Assembly: GCF_027460265.1 (NCBI RefSeq)
Contig: NZ_JAPZBC010000001.1
Location: 1,302,001 to 1,366,000, forward strand
Source of the DNA: Streptomyces sp. WMMC940
GTDB lineage: Bacteria; Actinomycetota; Actinomycetes; Streptomycetales; Streptomycetaceae
Direction of reading: 5' to 3'
DNA: 64,000 nt
Shown: piece after piece, positions 20,490 through 26,669 of the stretch
How positions within the stretch are numbered: position 1 is the stretch's first letter
Layout of the letters: each line of letters starts with the position of its first letter
Translations under genes and position numbers: made by a program
Notes under the pieces: generated by a model
Told to the model about the DNA's origin: nothing
The model's database searches: none
Seen by the model: only the letters and a program-made list of their open reading frames with translations

Positions 20490-22108
20490 TGCTTCCTCAG
20501 ATCCTGCTCGCCGCAGGGGGTCCCGGCACCCTCGACCTGGACACGGACACCCGCTCCTGGGTTCTCGTCGGCTTCCTCACCTTCATCGTCCCGATCCTGC
20601 TCATCTGCGTGCTCAACGGACCCGAGCGGGACCGGGTCGACGACTTCTACACGGCGGGCCGCGGGCTGGGACCCGTCCAGGGCGCCCTCGTCCTCACCGG
20701 CGTCTACCTCTCCGCCGCGACCGTGCTCGGCACGACGGGAACCGTCGCGGTCTTCGGCTTCGACGGACTGTTCATCGCCCTGTGCACCGTGCTGTCGCTC
20801 GGCGTCCTGCTCCTGCTGTCCGGCCCGCTGCGGGAACGCGGCAGCTACACCCTCGGCGACACGTTCGCCCTGCGGGCCCCGGGGCCCTCGGTCAGGATCG
20901 CGGTCGCCGTCGTCACGCTGAGCGCGTGCGTCCCGTATCTGATCGTCCAGCTCTCCGGTGCGGGCAGGACCACCGCCATGCTGCTCGGCCTGTCCGGTCC
21001 CGGCGCCGAGCAGACCGCCATCGTCATGATCGGCACCCTCGTCGTCTGCGCCACGGCCTTCGGCGGGATGCGCGGCATGATCGCGATCCAGGTGATCAAG
21101 ACGGTGATCCTGCTCGCCATGGCCGTGGCCGTGGCGGCGGTGCTGCTCCACCGCTTCCACTGGAGCCCCGACTCCCTCATCGAGGCCGCCGGGCGGGGCA
21201 GCGGCCGTCCCGAGGGCTATATGCGTCCGGGCCTGCGGTTCGCTGCCAGCAGCCCGGTCGAGGGGACCCTCGACTTCATCGGTCTGATGATCACCGTCGT
21301 ACTGGGCGTCGCCTGCATGCCCCATGTCGCCACCCAGCTCAACACCGCGCCCGACACCGCCACGGCACGCCGTACGGTCCGCCACACCATCGCCATCGTC
21401 GGTGCCATCTGCCTGCTCACCACCGTGCTGGGTTTCGGGGCCGCGGCGCTGATCGGCGCCCCGAAGATCCTCGCCGCCGACCCCGGGGCCACCAGCAGCC
21501 TGCTGATGCTCACCGGCGATCTGGCGGTCGGCTCGTCGGCGCAGACGGGCGAGGCATGGCTCGTCGTGCTGGTCTCCTGCGCGGTGTTCCTCACCACGCT
21601 GGCGGTCGTCGCGAGCGTGACGCTGGCGGCCGCAGGCTCGGTCGCCCACGACCTCGTCACCAACGTCTTCCGCCGCGGGCGCACGACCGAGGGCCGGGAA
21701 GTGGCCGCGGCCCGTATCGCGTCCGCCTTGGTCGGAGTGCTGAGCATCTGCCTCGCGGTGTGGGTGCAGGGCTGGAACATGGGATTCCTGTCCACGATCT
21801 CCCTGGCGGTGGCGAGCTCCTGCCTGCTCCCGGCGCTGGTGTACTCGCTGTTCTGGCGCGGCTTCACGCACAGGGGGCTGCTGTGGACGCTGTACGGAGG
21901 TCTCGGCTGCGCGCTCGGACTCCAGGTCGTGAGCCCCGTCTTCTCCGGCAGCCCGATGGCACTGTTCCCCGAATGGGACATCTCCTGGTTCCCGCTGCAG
22001 ACGGTCGCCCTGGTGTCGCTGCCCGTCGCGTTCCTGCTCGGCTGGCTGGGGAGCGTCACGGGACAGCGGCGTGCGACCGCGTTGCCGGAGCAGCCCGTCA
22101 GGGCGTGA
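20489..22108 (+). CDS. Sodium:solute symporter (SSS family)
   Basis: A 539-residue membrane protein with about thirteen spans. The N-terminal sequence DDFYTAGRGLGPVQGALVLTGVYLSAATVLGTTG matches the first core helices of acetate/proline-type SSS carriers, where the unwound TM1 binds sodium. Further family segments: GSYTLGDTFALRAPGPSVR, GGMRGMIAIQVIKTVILL and SVTLAAAGSVAHDLVTNVFRRG. Likely substrate is a small carboxylate such as acetate or pyruvate (ActP-like), based on the small upstream partner; not proven. The unit ends at a strong hairpin. Confidence 0.85.
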   Translation: MLPQILLAAGGPGTLDLDTDTRSWVLVGFLTFIVPILLICVLNGPERDRVDDFYTAGRGLGPVQGALVLTGVYLSAATVLGTTGTVAVFGFDGLFIALCTVLSLGVLLLLSGPLRERGSYTLGDTFALRAPGPSVRIAVAVVTLSACVPYLIVQLSGAGRTTAMLLGLSGPGAEQTAIVMIGTLVVCATAFGGMRGMIAIQVIKTVILLAMAVAVAAVLLHRFHWSPDSLIEAAGRGSGRPEGYMRPGLRFAASSPVEGTLDFIGLMITVVLGVACMPHVATQLNTAPDTATARRTVRHTIAIVGAICLLTTVLGFGAAALIGAPKILAADPGATSSLLMLTGDLAVGSSAQTGEAWLVVLVSCAVFLTTLAVVASVTLAAAGSVAHDLVTNVFRRGRTTEGREVAAARIASALVGVLSICLAVWVQGWNMGFLSTISLAVASSCLLPALVYSLFWRGFTHRGLLWTLYGGLGCALGLQVVSPVFSGSPMALFPEWDISWFPLQTVALVSLPVAFLLGWLGSVTGQRRATALPEQPVRA

Positions 22109-22117
22109 CGCACGAAT

Positions 22118-22161
22118 GCGGCGGCCGGTGGAGCGCCCTCACACGCTCCACCGGCCGCCGC
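22118..22161. terminator. Strong hairpin terminator after the symporter gene
   Basis: A perfect 18-bp stem (22118-22135 with 22144-22161, arm GCGGCGGCCGGTGGAGCG) and an 8-nt loop, 10 bases after the symporter stop. It also ends the facing decayed dehydrogenase gene. Confidence 0.85.
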
Positions 22162-22173
22162 CCCGTGCGGCGT

Positions 22174-22433
22174 TCAGCCCGCGGCGACGTCGTCGATACG
22201 TCGACGCAGGCGCCGCATCCCGCGCAGCACCGGTCGGTGTCGCTCGCGCGGAAGGCGCGATGGTCCCGTACCTCACCGTGGGGAAGGATCCGGAACCGCC
22301 CGCCCTCCAGTCCTTTCATCACCTCGTCGGCCACGACCTCGGGGTCGAGCACCGGGCCGCCGGGCGACCCCGATGGCCCGAACCCGGCGCCGGTGACCAC
22401 GACACCCGCGCCCTTGAGCTCCATGGGTGCCAT
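22174..22433 (-). pseudogene. Short-chain dehydrogenase gene with a large internal deletion
   Basis: The start MELKGAGVVVTGAGFG is the nucleotide-binding beginning of an SDR protein. It is joined directly to the C-terminal region of the same family (LDPEVVADEVMKGLEGGRFRILPH). About 180 residues that would contain the catalytic Ser-Tyr-Lys are gone. A one-base loss near TDR then shifts the frame; the old ending VLRGMRRLRRRIDDVAAG with its stop at 22174 is readable in the next frame. Non-functional. Confidence 0.75.
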
Positions 22434-22438
22434 CCGTC

Positions 22439-22520
22439 TCACTCGCCTGCGACGGCGAGCACGAGCTTGCCGTGGTTCTCGCCGCGGAAGAGCTCGAGCA
22501 GCGTGGAGCGGCCCCCCGTG
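22439..22520 (-). pseudogene. 3' remnant of a quinone-reductase-like (MDR) oxidoreductase gene
   Basis: The last ~27 codons read GRSTLLELFRGENHGKLVLA to a TGA at 22439, typical of the C-terminus of NADPH-dependent medium-chain oxidoreductases. The rest of the gene is cut off exactly where the inverted-repeat element begins (22521). It formed an operon with the SDR remnant next to it. Confidence 0.65.
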
Positions 22521-22624
22521 AGCCTCCGCCAACGTGAAGCCGCAGGTCAAAGGGCTGGTCTGACGGTTGTTCTGGGTGCTCATGCTGGTCAGGGGCGGCA
22601 GTCTGTGCAGTAGATCATCCGTCA
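22521..22624. repeat. Left terminal inverted repeat of the element
   Basis: 104 bp, reverse complement of 25510-25613 with about 19 mismatches. The outer 40 bases have only 3 differences, and the inner 13 (GATCATCCGTCA core) have one at most. CCGTG lies directly outside. Confidence 0.8.
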
Positions 22625-22651
22625 TCCCGATCCCCAGTGCGACGGATGATC
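22613..22651. repeat. Internal 11-bp inverted repeat at the left end of the element
   Basis: GATCATCCGTC (22613-22623) and its exact complement GACGGATGATC (22641-22651) are separated by 17 bases. The right end has a single copy of the arm at 25511-25521 with one differing base at its edge. It may be a transposase-binding site. Confidence 0.5.
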
Positions 22652-23004
22652 GGGGGTTGCAGAGCGGGGGCTGCCAAGGGACAGAACCTCTTGGTACATC
22701 AGCCGCGTTGGTATCTGGCTGCCATCGTGTGGAATACCTTCCTCGGTTCCCAGCGCCTCTCGTCGAGCATCCTGACGACGCCGTAGGAGCCAAGGTATTG
22801 CTTCCCGGGCGCTGTATCCGGCGAAGGTGAACCAGAGCGCGGTGTCCTCGAAAGCTCGAGTGCCGGGCCGATGGGCCGGTCACGTCGACCGACACTCCCA
22901 CCTTCCACCCGATTATCGTATTTGCGACTTTTTCTGTGTTTTGATGCACCCGCTGGCGCTCGGGCGCTGCGGTGACGGCCCATCACAGAAGGAGAGCGTG
23001 TCGG

Positions 23005-24837
23005 ATGTTCGGATCCCGGGGTAGAGATGACGCTGATCGCGCACGGCCGGCGACACTGAGCCGGCATTGGAAGACGGCCGTGGTGGCGGCCGCAGGCTTC
23101 GCCACCATCGCCGGCACGACGGCCCTGGTCGCCGTCACCGACGACGACAAGGCGGGAGCGAAGACCGCCTCCGCGGCGGCCGACCAGGCCAAGGGCACGA
23201 CCCAGCCCGCACCCGCCAAGGACGCCACGACCCGCGGCGGAAGCGCCGAGGACACCGAGGACGACAAGGACGCCGACTACTGGGCCGAACACGCCGGAAA
23301 CCCCGGCTGGAACGACAGCGACAACACCGAAGACCACGCAGGCAGCAGGGACGTGAGAACGGGCCCGGACACCACTGACTCCGGCAACCACGACGACAGC
23401 GACGCGGACGAAGACCACGACGAGAGCAGCGCCGACCAGAGCCACTCCGGCGAGCCCGAGGGGAAGCCCGGCCCGGCGGCCGCGGACACGCAGAAGCGCG
23501 CCGGCAACCCGAACGGCCCCGAGGGACAGAACGGCCCCGAGGGACACAGCAGCCACGACCGCGGCCATGACGGGCAAGGCGACCACGGCGAACAGACCGA
23601 CCACGACAACGACAGCGACCGCGGTCGTGACGGGCAGAGCGGCCGCCACGAAGAATCCGGCCGCCAGGGGCAGGACGGTCACCGGGACTCCCGCGAGGCC
23701 GGGGACAAGGCGAGGTCCGTCGGCTGCGACCCCAACGACCTGATCTCGGCGATCATCGACGCCAACAGCGACGGCGGAGGAACCCTCTCGCTCGCCGAGA
23801 AGTGCACCTACACCCTCACCGCCAACCAGGACGGCAACGGCCTTCCCGAGATCATCCAGCCCATCACCATCCACGGCAACGGCGCCACCATCGCCCGCGC
23901 CGCGGGCGCCGACCAGTTCCGCATCTTCGAAGTCGGCACCGGCGGCGACCTCACACTCCGCCACCTCACCCTCACCCGCGGCAAAGCCGCCGCCGACGAG
24001 GACGGCGGCGCCATCAACGTCAACGCCGCCGGCCGCCTCACCCTCGACCACACCACCCTCCACAACAACACCGTCGACGACACGAGCACCGACAACGCCG
24101 GCGCCATCTACAACCAGGGCATCACCACCATCCGCAACAGCACCCTCAGCAAGAACTCCGGCGAAGACGGCGGCGCGATCCACAACGACAACGGCAAACT
24201 CGACATCGCCAAAACGGAACTCACCCGCAACACCGCCGGCGATGGCGGCGCCATCTACAGCGCCGGCTCCACGACCATCGACAAGAGCCTGTTCAAGAGC
24301 AACACCGCCAGCGGCGCCGGTGGTGCCCTCTACGTCCCTGCGGGTGCGACCGACATCGACAGCAGTGCCTTCCTCTACAACTACGCCGAAAGCGGTGGCG
24401 GCGCCTTCTACAACGACGGCGTCGGGAGCCTGTACGTCCGCAGCAGTACCGTCGCCCGCAATACCAGCGACGACGGTGGCGGCCTCTACGCCGACGGCAA
24501 CTCCCACACGGTGATCTCGGACAGCCGCTTCCGTGGCAACACCGCCTTCGAAGGTGACGGCGGCGGCATCTACCAGGACGGCGATCTCGCCCTTCAGCGT
24601 ACGGTGGTCAGCGGTAACCAGGCTCCCAGCGACGGTGCTACCGGCGGCGGCATCTACGTCGGAGTCGAAGTCCTGAACCTGACCGACGTCGAGGTCACCG
24701 ACAACACCTCCGACACCGCGCCCGGCGGTATCGACAACAACGGAACCGTCACCACCCACGGCAAGATCAAGATCATCGACAACGTGCCGACCAACTGCGA
24801 GGGCAGCGCCAACCCCGTCCCGAACTGCTTCGGCTGA
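23005..24837 (+). CDS. Secreted or cell-surface parallel beta-helix protein
   Basis: A 610-residue protein. A basic N-terminus is followed by a hydrophobic signal/anchor (about residues 20-42, TAVVAAAGFATIAGTTALVA). Residues ~45-240 are a hydrophilic linker very rich in Asp, Gly, His, Glu and Ser. The C-terminal ~360 residues start with GCDPNDLISAIIDANSDGGG and contain about ten irregular coils of the type DGGAI-N-x-G-x-LT-I-x-x-S-x-x-x-N, typical of right-handed beta-helix (polymorphic-outer-membrane/CSLREA-like) proteins. ATG 23005 has GAAGGAGAG upstream. AT-rich DNA at ~22908-22945 may hold its promoter. It is the passenger of the element; function unknown, perhaps adhesion or glycan binding. 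Confidence 0.8.
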   Translation: MFGSRGRDDADRARPATLSRHWKTAVVAAAGFATIAGTTALVAVTDDDKAGAKTASAAADQAKGTTQPAPAKDATTRGGSAEDTEDDKDADYWAEHAGNPGWNDSDNTEDHAGSRDVRTGPDTTDSGNHDDSDADEDHDESSADQSHSGEPEGKPGPAAADTQKRAGNPNGPEGQNGPEGHSSHDRGHDGQGDHGEQTDHDNDSDRGRDGQSGRHEESGRQGQDGHRDSREAGDKARSVGCDPNDLISAIIDANSDGGGTLSLAEKCTYTLTANQDGNGLPEIIQPITIHGNGATIARAAGADQFRIFEVGTGGDLTLRHLTLTRGKAAADEDGGAINVNAAGRLTLDHTTLHNNTVDDTSTDNAGAIYNQGITTIRNSTLSKNSGEDGGAIHNDNGKLDIAKTELTRNTAGDGGAIYSAGSTTIDKSLFKSNTASGAGGALYVPAGATDIDSSAFLYNYAESGGGAFYNDGVGSLYVRSSTVARNTSDDGGGLYADGNSHTVISDSRFRGNTAFEGDGGGIYQDGDLALQRTVVSGNQAPSDGATGGGIYVGVEVLNLTDVEVTDNTSDTAPGGIDNNGTVTTHGKIKIIDNVPTNCEGSANPVPNCFG

Positions 24838-24874
24838 CACCCCCACCAAACAAGGAAAACTGCCATACAAAGCA

Positions 24875-25512
24875 ATGAATCACCCCGCACCCGCCCCCGG
24901 CACCCTGCCGGGGGCGGCCACGGGCACCGGCCGGGCGGAGCTGATCGGACTGCTCGCCGCCCAGGCCCCGCGCCTGGACCGCGTCCTGAAGAAGGTCGCC
25001 GGGCAGGGCGGGGAGGTGGTCCTGATCGACGGCACCCTCATCCGCACCCAGCGCCGTACACGCAGCGCCGACCGACGGAACTACTCCGGCAAGCACCGAA
25101 CCCATGGCCTGCACTTCCCCACCCTGACCGACGAGAAGGGACGCCTGATCTGGATATCCGCCGCGCGGCCTGGCCGCACCCACGACAACACCGCCGCCCG
25201 CCACGACCACATCCTGGCCCACCTGCGCGCCGCCGGCCTCGGGGCGCTGGCTGACCTCGGCTTCCGCGGCCTGGACAACGACATCTTCGACCCAGTGATC
25301 GTCACCGGCTACGCTGCCAGCCGCACCCACAAGCTCACCCCAGGCGAGAAGGAAGCCAACCGCGTCCTCCCGTGGGACGCGCGCCGGTCGAGCACGGCTT
25401 CGCCCACCTACAGAACTGGCGGATCCTCACCAAGCTGCGCACCGACCCCGCCCGCGCCACCCAGCTCCTGCGCGCCCTGCTCGTCTTGACGAACCTCGAA
25501 GTCAACCGCTGA
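24875..25512 (+). pseudogene. Broken IS5-like DDE transposase gene
   Basis: The catalytic domain is recognisable: VVLIDGTLIRTQRR (first Asp), NYSGKHRTHGL, IWISAARPGRTHDNTAARH (second Asp region) and LADLGFRGL. The usual ~80-100 residue N-terminal helix-turn-helix domain is absent. After EKEANRVL (about 25375) the frame shifts; the expected ending VEHGFAHLQNWRILTKLRTD up to LVLTNLEVNR continues in another frame to TGA 25510. Loss of the N-terminus and the frameshift make it inactive. Confidence 0.8.
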
Positions 25513-25613
25513 CGGATGATCTTCGCCGTGGACTCCCGCCCACAACCAGCATGAGCGCCCCGAGGAGCGGTCACACCAGCCCTTTGACCTGCGACTTCAA
25601 GTTGGCGGAGGCT
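25510..25613. repeat. Right terminal inverted repeat of the element
   Basis: 104 bp, matching the left end in inverse orientation. It begins on the transposase stop codon and ends 30 bases before the stop of the neighbouring CBS-domain gene. CCGTG follows at 25614. Confidence 0.8.
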
Positions 25614-25643
25614 CCGTGCGGTGCGCGGTCGGAGGTTCGCCGA

Positions 25644-26669
25644 TCAGGCGACCGCGTCGGGAGCGGGGCCCACCAGTTCCTCCAGGACGTCCTCCATGGT
25701 GACGAAGCCGATGACGGTGCCCTTGGTGCCGGTGACGGCGGCGAGATGGGTGCCGGCGCCCCGCATGGCGGTCATGGTGTCGTCGAGAGGGGTGTCGATG
25801 GCGACCTTGATGATGGGGTGCAGGGCCGTGCGCGGGAAGGGCTTCGTGCGGTCGGCGGCGCCGAGCGCGTCCTTGATGTGCAGGTAGCCCAGGATCGCAC
25901 CGCCCTCCGCGACCACCGGCAGCCGGGAGAACCGGTTGGCGACGGAGGCCCTTTCCAGGCCCTGGGGGGTGATTCCGGCGCCGACGGTGAGCATCTTGTT
26001 GAGCGGCACCATCACCTCGCCGACCGGCCGGGTGCCCAGTTCCAGCGCGTCCTGCAGTCGCTCCCCGTCCTCCGGTTCGAGGAGCCCGGCCTCGCTGGAG
26101 TCCTTGACCAGGCGGGCCAGTTCGTCGTCGGTGAAGACCGAGGCGACCTCGTCCTTGGGCTCGACCCTCAGCAGCCGCAGGAGGGCGTTGGCGAAGGTGT
26201 TGATGCCGAAGATCACCGGTCGCAGGGCCCGGGTCAGCGCCACCAACGGGGGGCCGAGGAGCAGCGCGGTCGGCGCCGGGGCGGCGAGGGCGATGTTCTT
26301 CGGGACCATCTCGCCGAAGAGCATGTGCAGATACGTCGCCAGCGTCAGCGCGATGACGAACGCGATCGGGTGGATCAGCGCATCCGGGACGCCGATGGCG
26401 TGGAACGGGGGCTCCAGCAGATGGGCGATGGCCGGTTCGGCGACGGCGCCCAGCACCAGCGACGACACGGTGATGCCGAGCTGGGCCGTGGCCATCATCG
26501 CGGACAGGTGCTCGATCCCCCAGAGGGTGCTCCGGGCACGCAGGTTGCCCTTGACCGCGGCCGGCTCGATCTGGCTGCGGCGCACGGAGATCAGGGCGAA
26601 CTCGGCCCCGACGAAGAAGGCGTTGGTGACGAGGGTGAACGCACCGATCAGCAACTGGAGGGTGGTCAT
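25644..26669 (-). CDS. CNNM/CorC-type membrane protein with CBS pair (second of tandem pair)
   Basis: A 341-residue protein: an N-terminal DUF21 membrane domain with about three to four spans (LLIGAFTLVTNAFFVGAEFALISVRRSQIE; GEMVPKNIAL is the family motif), then two CBS domains (VGEVMVPLNKMLTV..., FPRTALHPIIKVAIDTPLDD...). It lacks the C-terminal CorC/HlyC transporter-associated domain, so it is shorter than its neighbour. Start ATG 26669 overlaps the stop of the upstream paralogue (ATGA). Family members export or regulate Mg2+; in Actinobacteria they are often annotated as hemolysin-like. Confidence 0.88.
   Translation of the reverse strand: MTTLQLLIGAFTLVTNAFFVGAEFALISVRRSQIEPAAVKGNLRARSTLWGIEHLSAMMATAQLGITVSSLVLGAVAEPAIAHLLEPPFHAIGVPDALIHPIAFVIALTLATYLHMLFGEMVPKNIALAAPAPTALLLGPPLVALTRALRPVIFGINTFANALLRLLRVEPKDEVASVFTDDELARLVKDSSEAGLLEPEDGERLQDALELGTRPVGEVMVPLNKMLTVGAGITPQGLERASVANRFSRLPVVAEGGAILGYLHIKDALGAADRTKPFPRTALHPIIKVAIDTPLDDTMTAMRGAGTHLAAVTGTKGTVIGFVTMEDVLEELVGPAPDAVA

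Follow-up and report, generated by a model that had tools for sequence, protein, structure and literature searches.

How did an intact host gene come to lie between the long inverted ends of a mobile element whose transposase is broken? The question is raised by a 3.1-kb element in Streptomyces sp. WMMC940, located in a stretch of 64 kb (C1:1302001-1366000, where C1 coordinates refer to the genome of this strain; the whole stretch is called the window here, and plain coordinates are positions within it). The element contains a gene for a 610-residue beta-helix protein. The capture of this gene by a relict element is the best reading of the locus: the window copy is very probably a non-autonomous hybrid relict that belongs to a family of insertion sequences (IS) carrying cargo in Streptomyces, with a beta-helix unit spliced into it.

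The two terminal inverted repeats are each 105 nt long (left 22520..22624, plus strand; right 25510..25614, minus strand). Both match the end profile of the family, the left one over profile positions 1-105, and their arms are 82% complementary over 105 nt, the longest inverted pair listed within 22000-26200. This agrees with the hand count of about 85 matches in 104 positions given in the first-pass annotation of this DNA. The direct repeats of CCGTG reported there are likewise present, at 22516..22520 on the left and at 25614..25618 on the right, the right one assigned from the sequence and a comparison of the flanks. The left boundary follows the CNNNG rule seen at other family elements; the flanks fit a 3-bp duplication equally well, in which case the left repeat is CGT and the outer G...C is part of the inverted repeat. 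With G as the outermost base of the inverted repeat and C as the first base of the target, duplications of 5 bp (CNNNG) and 3 bp (NNN) are indistinguishable. Next to the ends of other elements CCGTG was found at 1 of 28 right ends and 2 of 28 left ends. Because the family prefers CNNNG targets, CCGTG is modest evidence for the window copy.

Between the ends, element homology on both sides (22518-22850 and 24932-25614) encloses beta-helix homology (22862-24917), which is the basis for calling the copy a hybrid. The left element part (from 22518/22522 to 22850) is 87% identical in DNA to three loci from the family survey described below, L058, L080 and L081. It holds a remnant of a glycosidase-like cargo gene (22699..22850, minus strand) that covers the C-terminal ~50 of 313 residues (16%) of the protein and is intact in L058, L080 and L073. 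The right element part (from 24932/24938 to 25614) is 89-91% identical to L057, L060 and L082. Here lies the remnant of an IS5-like DDE_Tnp_4 transposase gene (24932..25512, plus strand; 91% DNA identity to L057, 90% to L060), comprising roughly the C-terminal 70% of a 277-aa protein. In the corresponding open reading frame (ORF; 24875-25489) the DDE_Tnp_4 domain is partial, matching the model over positions 1-113 of 158; the ORF lacks the ~86 N-terminal residues present in intact relatives, and a frameshift near 25377 precedes a conserved VEHGFAHLKNW stretch, the Glu of which we take to be catalytic. The broken IS5-like transposase of the first-pass annotation is thus confirmed, as is the intact gene: the beta-helix ORF (23005..24837, plus strand) encodes 610 residues with matches to Beta_helix (PF13229) and Chlam_PMP (PF02415).

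The inserted sequence is a whole transcription unit (22862..24917, plus strand), consisting of an upstream region, the coding sequence and a closing, terminator-like, GC-rich hairpin (24891..24917, plus strand; an inverted-repeat pair that is conserved in four paralogs). Over 22862-24917 the unit is 77-80% identical in DNA to four tandem paralogs of the same genome, which share its upstream and terminator regions, and alignments place its junctions narrowly. At the left junction, element sequence ends near 22850 and beta-helix upstream sequence starts by about 22862-22889; at the right junction, the hairpin of the paralogs ends at 24917 and transposase sequence resumes near 24932, at about residue 86 of the intact relatives. 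The unit therefore sits in the place expected for the body of the older cargo gene, a partner gene and the opening third of the transposase gene. In all three elements with an intact glycosidase-like gene (L058, L073, L080) this gene and the transposase are co-directional, whereas in the window copy they point in opposite directions, so that either two architectures contributed one end each or a part was inverted.

To place the element in a wider context, the left end of the window copy together with 76 nt was compared with 392 Streptomyces genomes, at most two places being scored per genome. The end was matched in 134 of them, frequently as plus/minus pairs 1.2-5.2 kb apart, so the pair is by no means confined to this locus, as the first refuting condition of the first-pass annotation would have it. 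The end is also present in 35 PLSDB plasmid records, all named Streptomyces. An end profile was searched over 106 loci (104 fetched from the genome matches, the window and one further locus of its own genome), and 39 of them contain an end pair, giving element sizes of 678-5172 bp. Because the first 25 fetched pairs were selected for having both ends visible, pair frequencies do not equal prevalence; two of the 39 (L093, L203) have one weak end each and L080 has truncated ends, and a pair of L070 that had been counted twice is not included. Transposase similarity is present in 36 of the 39 paired elements and extends unbroken over the full length in 23; a ~150-aa partner gene is at least 80% complete in 32, the intact glycosidase-like gene occurs in three, and the beta-helix gene in one, the window copy. 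The flanking 5-mers are equal at 19 of the 39 pairs, nearly all of the form CNNNG and CCGTG itself at L073, against 156 of 1482 control pairings of ends from different elements (10.5%); flanking 3-mers are equal at 25 of 39 pairs and in 231 of 1482 control pairings. CCGTG-like repeats, to be looked for at other copies according to the first-pass annotation, do occur in the family. The two ends of one element are often less alike than the ends of different elements. The left end of the window copy is nearest to L055, and by its inner sequence to L058, L080 and L081; the right end is nearest to L057. An Rfam search of five elements gave no match.

Intact members are cargo-carrying insertion sequences with a DDE_Tnp_4 transposase, an uncharacterised partner of ~150 aa and varied cargo, so that the combination of long ends and cargo pointed out in the first pass recurs throughout a family of elements with 105-nt ends, including versions with a full-length transposase and other genes. 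Cargo was typed for the loci fetched earlier. Pfam matches above cut-off identified SDR (L063, L066), Rrf2 (L066), GNAT (L069), MerR (L086), alpha/beta hydrolase and sigma factor (L070), TetR (L073) and glyoxalase (L078) proteins. The glycosidase-like proteins of L058, L073 and L080 match GH113 or cellulase models, all below the curated cut-off, and the proteins of L055, L062 and L072 have no Pfam match above cut-off.

Two lines of evidence show that this cargo moves together with the ends: near-identical cargo elements at unrelated sites, and empty sites. Elements sharing their cargo were found in places whose flanks are not similar (L063/L071, 98% over 2785 bp; L072/L076, 92% over 2544; L078/L079, 90% over 2114; L072/L074, 86% over 2601; L058/L080, 92% over 1806). 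The joined flanks of seven elements, with L056 left off, were then searched against 199 genomes. For L073, which carries TetR and glycosidase-like cargo between CCGTG repeats, uninterrupted sites with a single CCGTG are present in three genomes (G109, G193, G119). One uninterrupted site was found for L071 with its SDR cargo (G055, with CGGTG there and CAGTG in L071), and two for L074 (G189, G175). The joined flanks of L066 match related genes only, at 70-71%, and those of L058 match a CRISPR (clustered regularly interspaced short palindromic repeats) array with other spacers; for L070 and L076 no clear empty site was found among these genomes, no alignment spanning the junction by more than about 25 nt. 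Empty sites, which the first-pass annotation proposed to look for, hence exist for three family members; for the window copy none was detected in 41 genomes.

The intact transposase of L057 matches DDE_Tnp_4 with an E-value of 1.9e-25, in addition to weak helix-turn-helix matches. Its best NCBIfam match is transpos_IS5_4 (E 7e-25), with 87.9 bits below the curated cut-off of 140, and the score for transpos_IS5_3 (33.8 bits) is likewise below the cut-off of 110. In named records the transposase is annotated as 'transposase family protein' and the partner as 'hypothetical protein'. The partner (e.g. L060 1461-1916) has no Pfam or NCBIfam match but 932 homologs at E<=0.001. Among the best 120 of these none has a precomputed Pfam domain, and where named they are 'hypothetical' or 'uncharacterized', with a single UniRef name 'DNA-binding protein'. 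An AlphaFold model of the partner shows a long confident helix (residues 4-59) followed by low-confidence C-terminal helices and short strands; it is weak overall, with a mean predicted local distance difference test score (pLDDT) of 69.7 and a predicted template-modelling score (pTM) of 0.33. The partner may act as a DNA-binding helper of the transposase.

The beta-helix protein consists of a hydrophobic N-terminal stretch (seen by eye), a disordered linker rich in D, H and G, and a right-handed beta-helix from about residue 237. The structure model has a pLDDT >90 for 365 residues, showing a clean right-handed helix preceded by a disordered stretch. Foldseek returned generic beta-helix matches (mannuronan epimerase, Rhombotarget A, the PfbA adhesin and tailspikes; best E 1.5e-5, template-modelling scores 0.30-0.47). 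Since such matches fix no function, we do not claim an adhesin role. With a shortened protein query at E<=1e-30, 7 of 295 Streptomyces genomes proved to have the family, often in multiple copies; a large protein set (7995 candidates scored) contains 193 relatives at E<=1e-20, and the nearest proteins among the best 120 belong to Streptomyces sp. strains NPDC0589xx-0591xx. A scan of GTDB contigs, a pattern search and not a census, gave two loci. In WMMC940 the four tandem paralogs lie at C1:1395665-1405600 (L021 3791-13513), 68-78 kb downstream of the window gene. The latter is a mosaic: up to about column 450 of a 685-column alignment it is nearest to the tandem paralogs, with stretches of up to 97-99% identity, and after column 450 to a paralog at C1:4.28 Mb (L023 1272-3101; 84-94% vs 54-73%). 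Judged from these alignments, the beta-helix paralogs recombine with one another. The ratio of nonsynonymous to synonymous substitution rates (dN/dS) among them is 0.67-1.07, indicating that the family changes fast; an open frame of 610 residues with such ratios is compatible with a function of the window gene but does not prove it. Apart from those of the window copy, no element end was found in 27 beta-helix loci examined with at least 1.5 kb of flank, which include 18 other genome-search matches and the own-genome paralogs. The proposal that a transposon spreads beta-helix surface proteins in Streptomyces is thus not supported, and an element of this kind as the usual vehicle of the gene family was rejected, with only one of the 39 paired elements carrying the gene.

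These observations can be arranged into the following account. In an intact member, the transposase, possibly aided by the partner protein, would bind the 105-bp ends and excise or copy the whole unit with any enclosed gene, and the unit would then insert at a CNNNG target, generating a short direct repeat. In the window element, illegitimate recombination would have drawn on the paralog family of the host itself and brought in an entire beta-helix transcription unit, at the expense of the older cargo gene's body, the partner gene and the initial third of the transposase. With two recognisable ends and no working transposase, the present copy could be moved only by a related transposase acting in trans. 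Our inferences concern the recombination itself, whether it came before or after insertion at the window site, and any present mobility. Since neither an empty site nor a same-site relative was detected in 41 genomes, the insertion itself is deduced from the ends and CCGTG.

The beta-helix gene might instead be mobilised cargo, the 3.1-kb unit having transposed to this site after the capture by means of a related transposase in trans and having generated CCGTG in doing so. Both ends are complete over 105 positions and bordered by CCGTG, cargo travels with the ends in other family members, and the gene, ~68-78 kb away from the closest of its paralogs, forms a full unit equipped with an upstream region and a hairpin of its own. 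But an older element that inserted first and had its inside replaced later would leave the same CCGTG, there is no second copy in the own genome and none among the other 38 paired elements, and the gene family, present in the few genomes given above, has no end beside the matches examined. DDE_Tnp_4 genes are present in the own genome, but an intact one of this type between such ends is absent; overall we consider later mobilisation possible but rather unlikely. An assembly in place, in which two family elements flanked a chromosomal beta-helix gene and each lost its inner part, appears doubtful. The two ends of the window copy are closest to different element types, as it would predict, the flanking region appears degraded, and CCGTG, coincidental in this case, could be matched by chance alone at roughly 4-7%. 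Against such an assembly stands the need for two oppositely oriented insertions, two deletions and a repeat arising by chance, and the ends of one element are often closer to those of other elements anyway. An ordinary composite transposon with two complete IS copies around the cargo was discarded, the window having one broken transposase and single ends. That no transposon is involved and chance inverted repeats surround an ordinary gene is hardly conceivable: the ends recur in about a third of the genomes searched (134/392) and pair round transposases (36/39), flanking repeats are well above control and empty sites exist, which refutes it for the family.

Several points weigh against capture by a relict element, the reading that we favour. 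The chance level of the CCGTG match just given applies to it as well; the window copy has no detected empty site or same-site relative in the 41 genomes, which also yielded no relative carrying the beta-helix gene at the corresponding position; the hybrid interpretation depends on three comparison elements; and the stretches of up to 97-99% identity between the window gene and its paralogs reflect recent gene conversion, which blurs the time of the gene's arrival.

In the own genome, all 21 candidates were scored and only the two ends of the window copy match. Close to a divergent transposase gene at C1:2.659 Mb there is a weak end-like stretch (L022 2100-2193; 36 bits). Comparison of the left flank with relatives beyond the CNNM/CBS gene revealed no convincing synteny, just short weak translated matches. 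Immediately left of the element (22098-22515, minus strand), a dehydrogenase gene and an SDR gene seem, by eye, to have left remnants; no Pfam match was obtained for the ORF there.

Insertion sequences with passenger genes are called transporter IS (tIS), a term that occurs in PMC3129680 and PMC9330008. As in tIS, an IS-type transposase and inverted ends enclose genes unrelated to transposition, and in family members the cargo moves with the ends. The Streptomyces family differs in its 105-bp ends, its conserved ~150-aa partner gene and a very varied cargo within one genus-wide lineage, and the window copy differs further in having lost transposase function and carrying a host paralog. The best-known tIS group, the IS1595 type, has a different transposase family and is set apart by this description. 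IS5 elements share the DDE_Tnp_4-type transposase, which is partial in the window and full length in L057; their terminal inverted repeats usually measure roughly 12-20 bp, far less than the 105 nt found here, and the Streptomyces family has a second gene and a transposase scoring below the curated NCBIfam cut-offs for IS5. Tn4811 of Streptomyces lividans, a 5.4-kb transposon with oxidoreductase-type genes, is alike by description only, as a Streptomyces transposon carrying non-transposition genes. In openly accessible literature on passenger or cargo IS, IS5 and long inverted repeats in Streptomyces, no such family appears in titles or abstract openings, and its novelty is provisional.

Cargo-carrying IS are known already; this lineage is common in the genus, and 'hypothetical' is the label given to its partner gene in nearly all cases. 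With ends of such length and a name for the transposase alone, the association with cargo escapes annotation pipelines. With its cargo swaps, hybrids and relicts like the window copy, the family provides a natural series of capture intermediates in which the acquisition of host genes by IS can be read directly. A broader reading, which we offer as speculation and regard as improbable in its full extent, is that a large and so far undescribed Streptomyces tIS lineage, made up of 105-bp ends, a DDE_Tnp_4 transposase and a partner with coiled-coil and winged-helix-like parts, captures entire transcription units of its host and lands preferentially in CRISPR arrays and in other repeats rich in CNNNG, and that the captured beta-helix gene of the window, from a fast-evolving family, keeps recombining with its paralogs, forming a movable reservoir that shuffles a secreted protein.

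A type I-E-like CRISPR repeat was observed 6-36 nt from an end at 5 of the 106 loci (end positions L058 703 and 3460, L060 696 and 2924, L070 714, L149 6495, L197 6500). The arrays at L060 and L197 have a 61-nt period, and in plasmid NZ_CP027025.1 an array adjoining cas7-cas5-cas6 encloses both an end (L206 4001) and an SMI1/KNR4 gene. The bare CRISPR palindrome occurs ~106 times per genome (61 genomes), so that chance alone would place one within 70 nt of ~0.12 of 142 ends. The adjacency could reflect targeting or, equally well, that arrays tolerate insertions. Insertions of IS into cas genes are reported in PMC10359306, which is different from landing within arrays. If they hold in a larger sample, such landing sites would matter for defence evolution.

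Tandem pentamers (e.g. CGGTG repeats) abut L057 on the left, L063 and L067 on both sides and L086 on the right. The preceding pentamer is matched at four or more of five positions by 9 of 70 ends, compared with 4-5% of control sites; such pentamers may mark preferred targets or be left over from repeated rounds of insertion and excision. In a Streptomyces plasmid (NZ_CP108162.1), the same transposase, partner and cargo proteins are duplicated in tandem, 2920 bp apart (L207 1183-2688 and 4103-5608).

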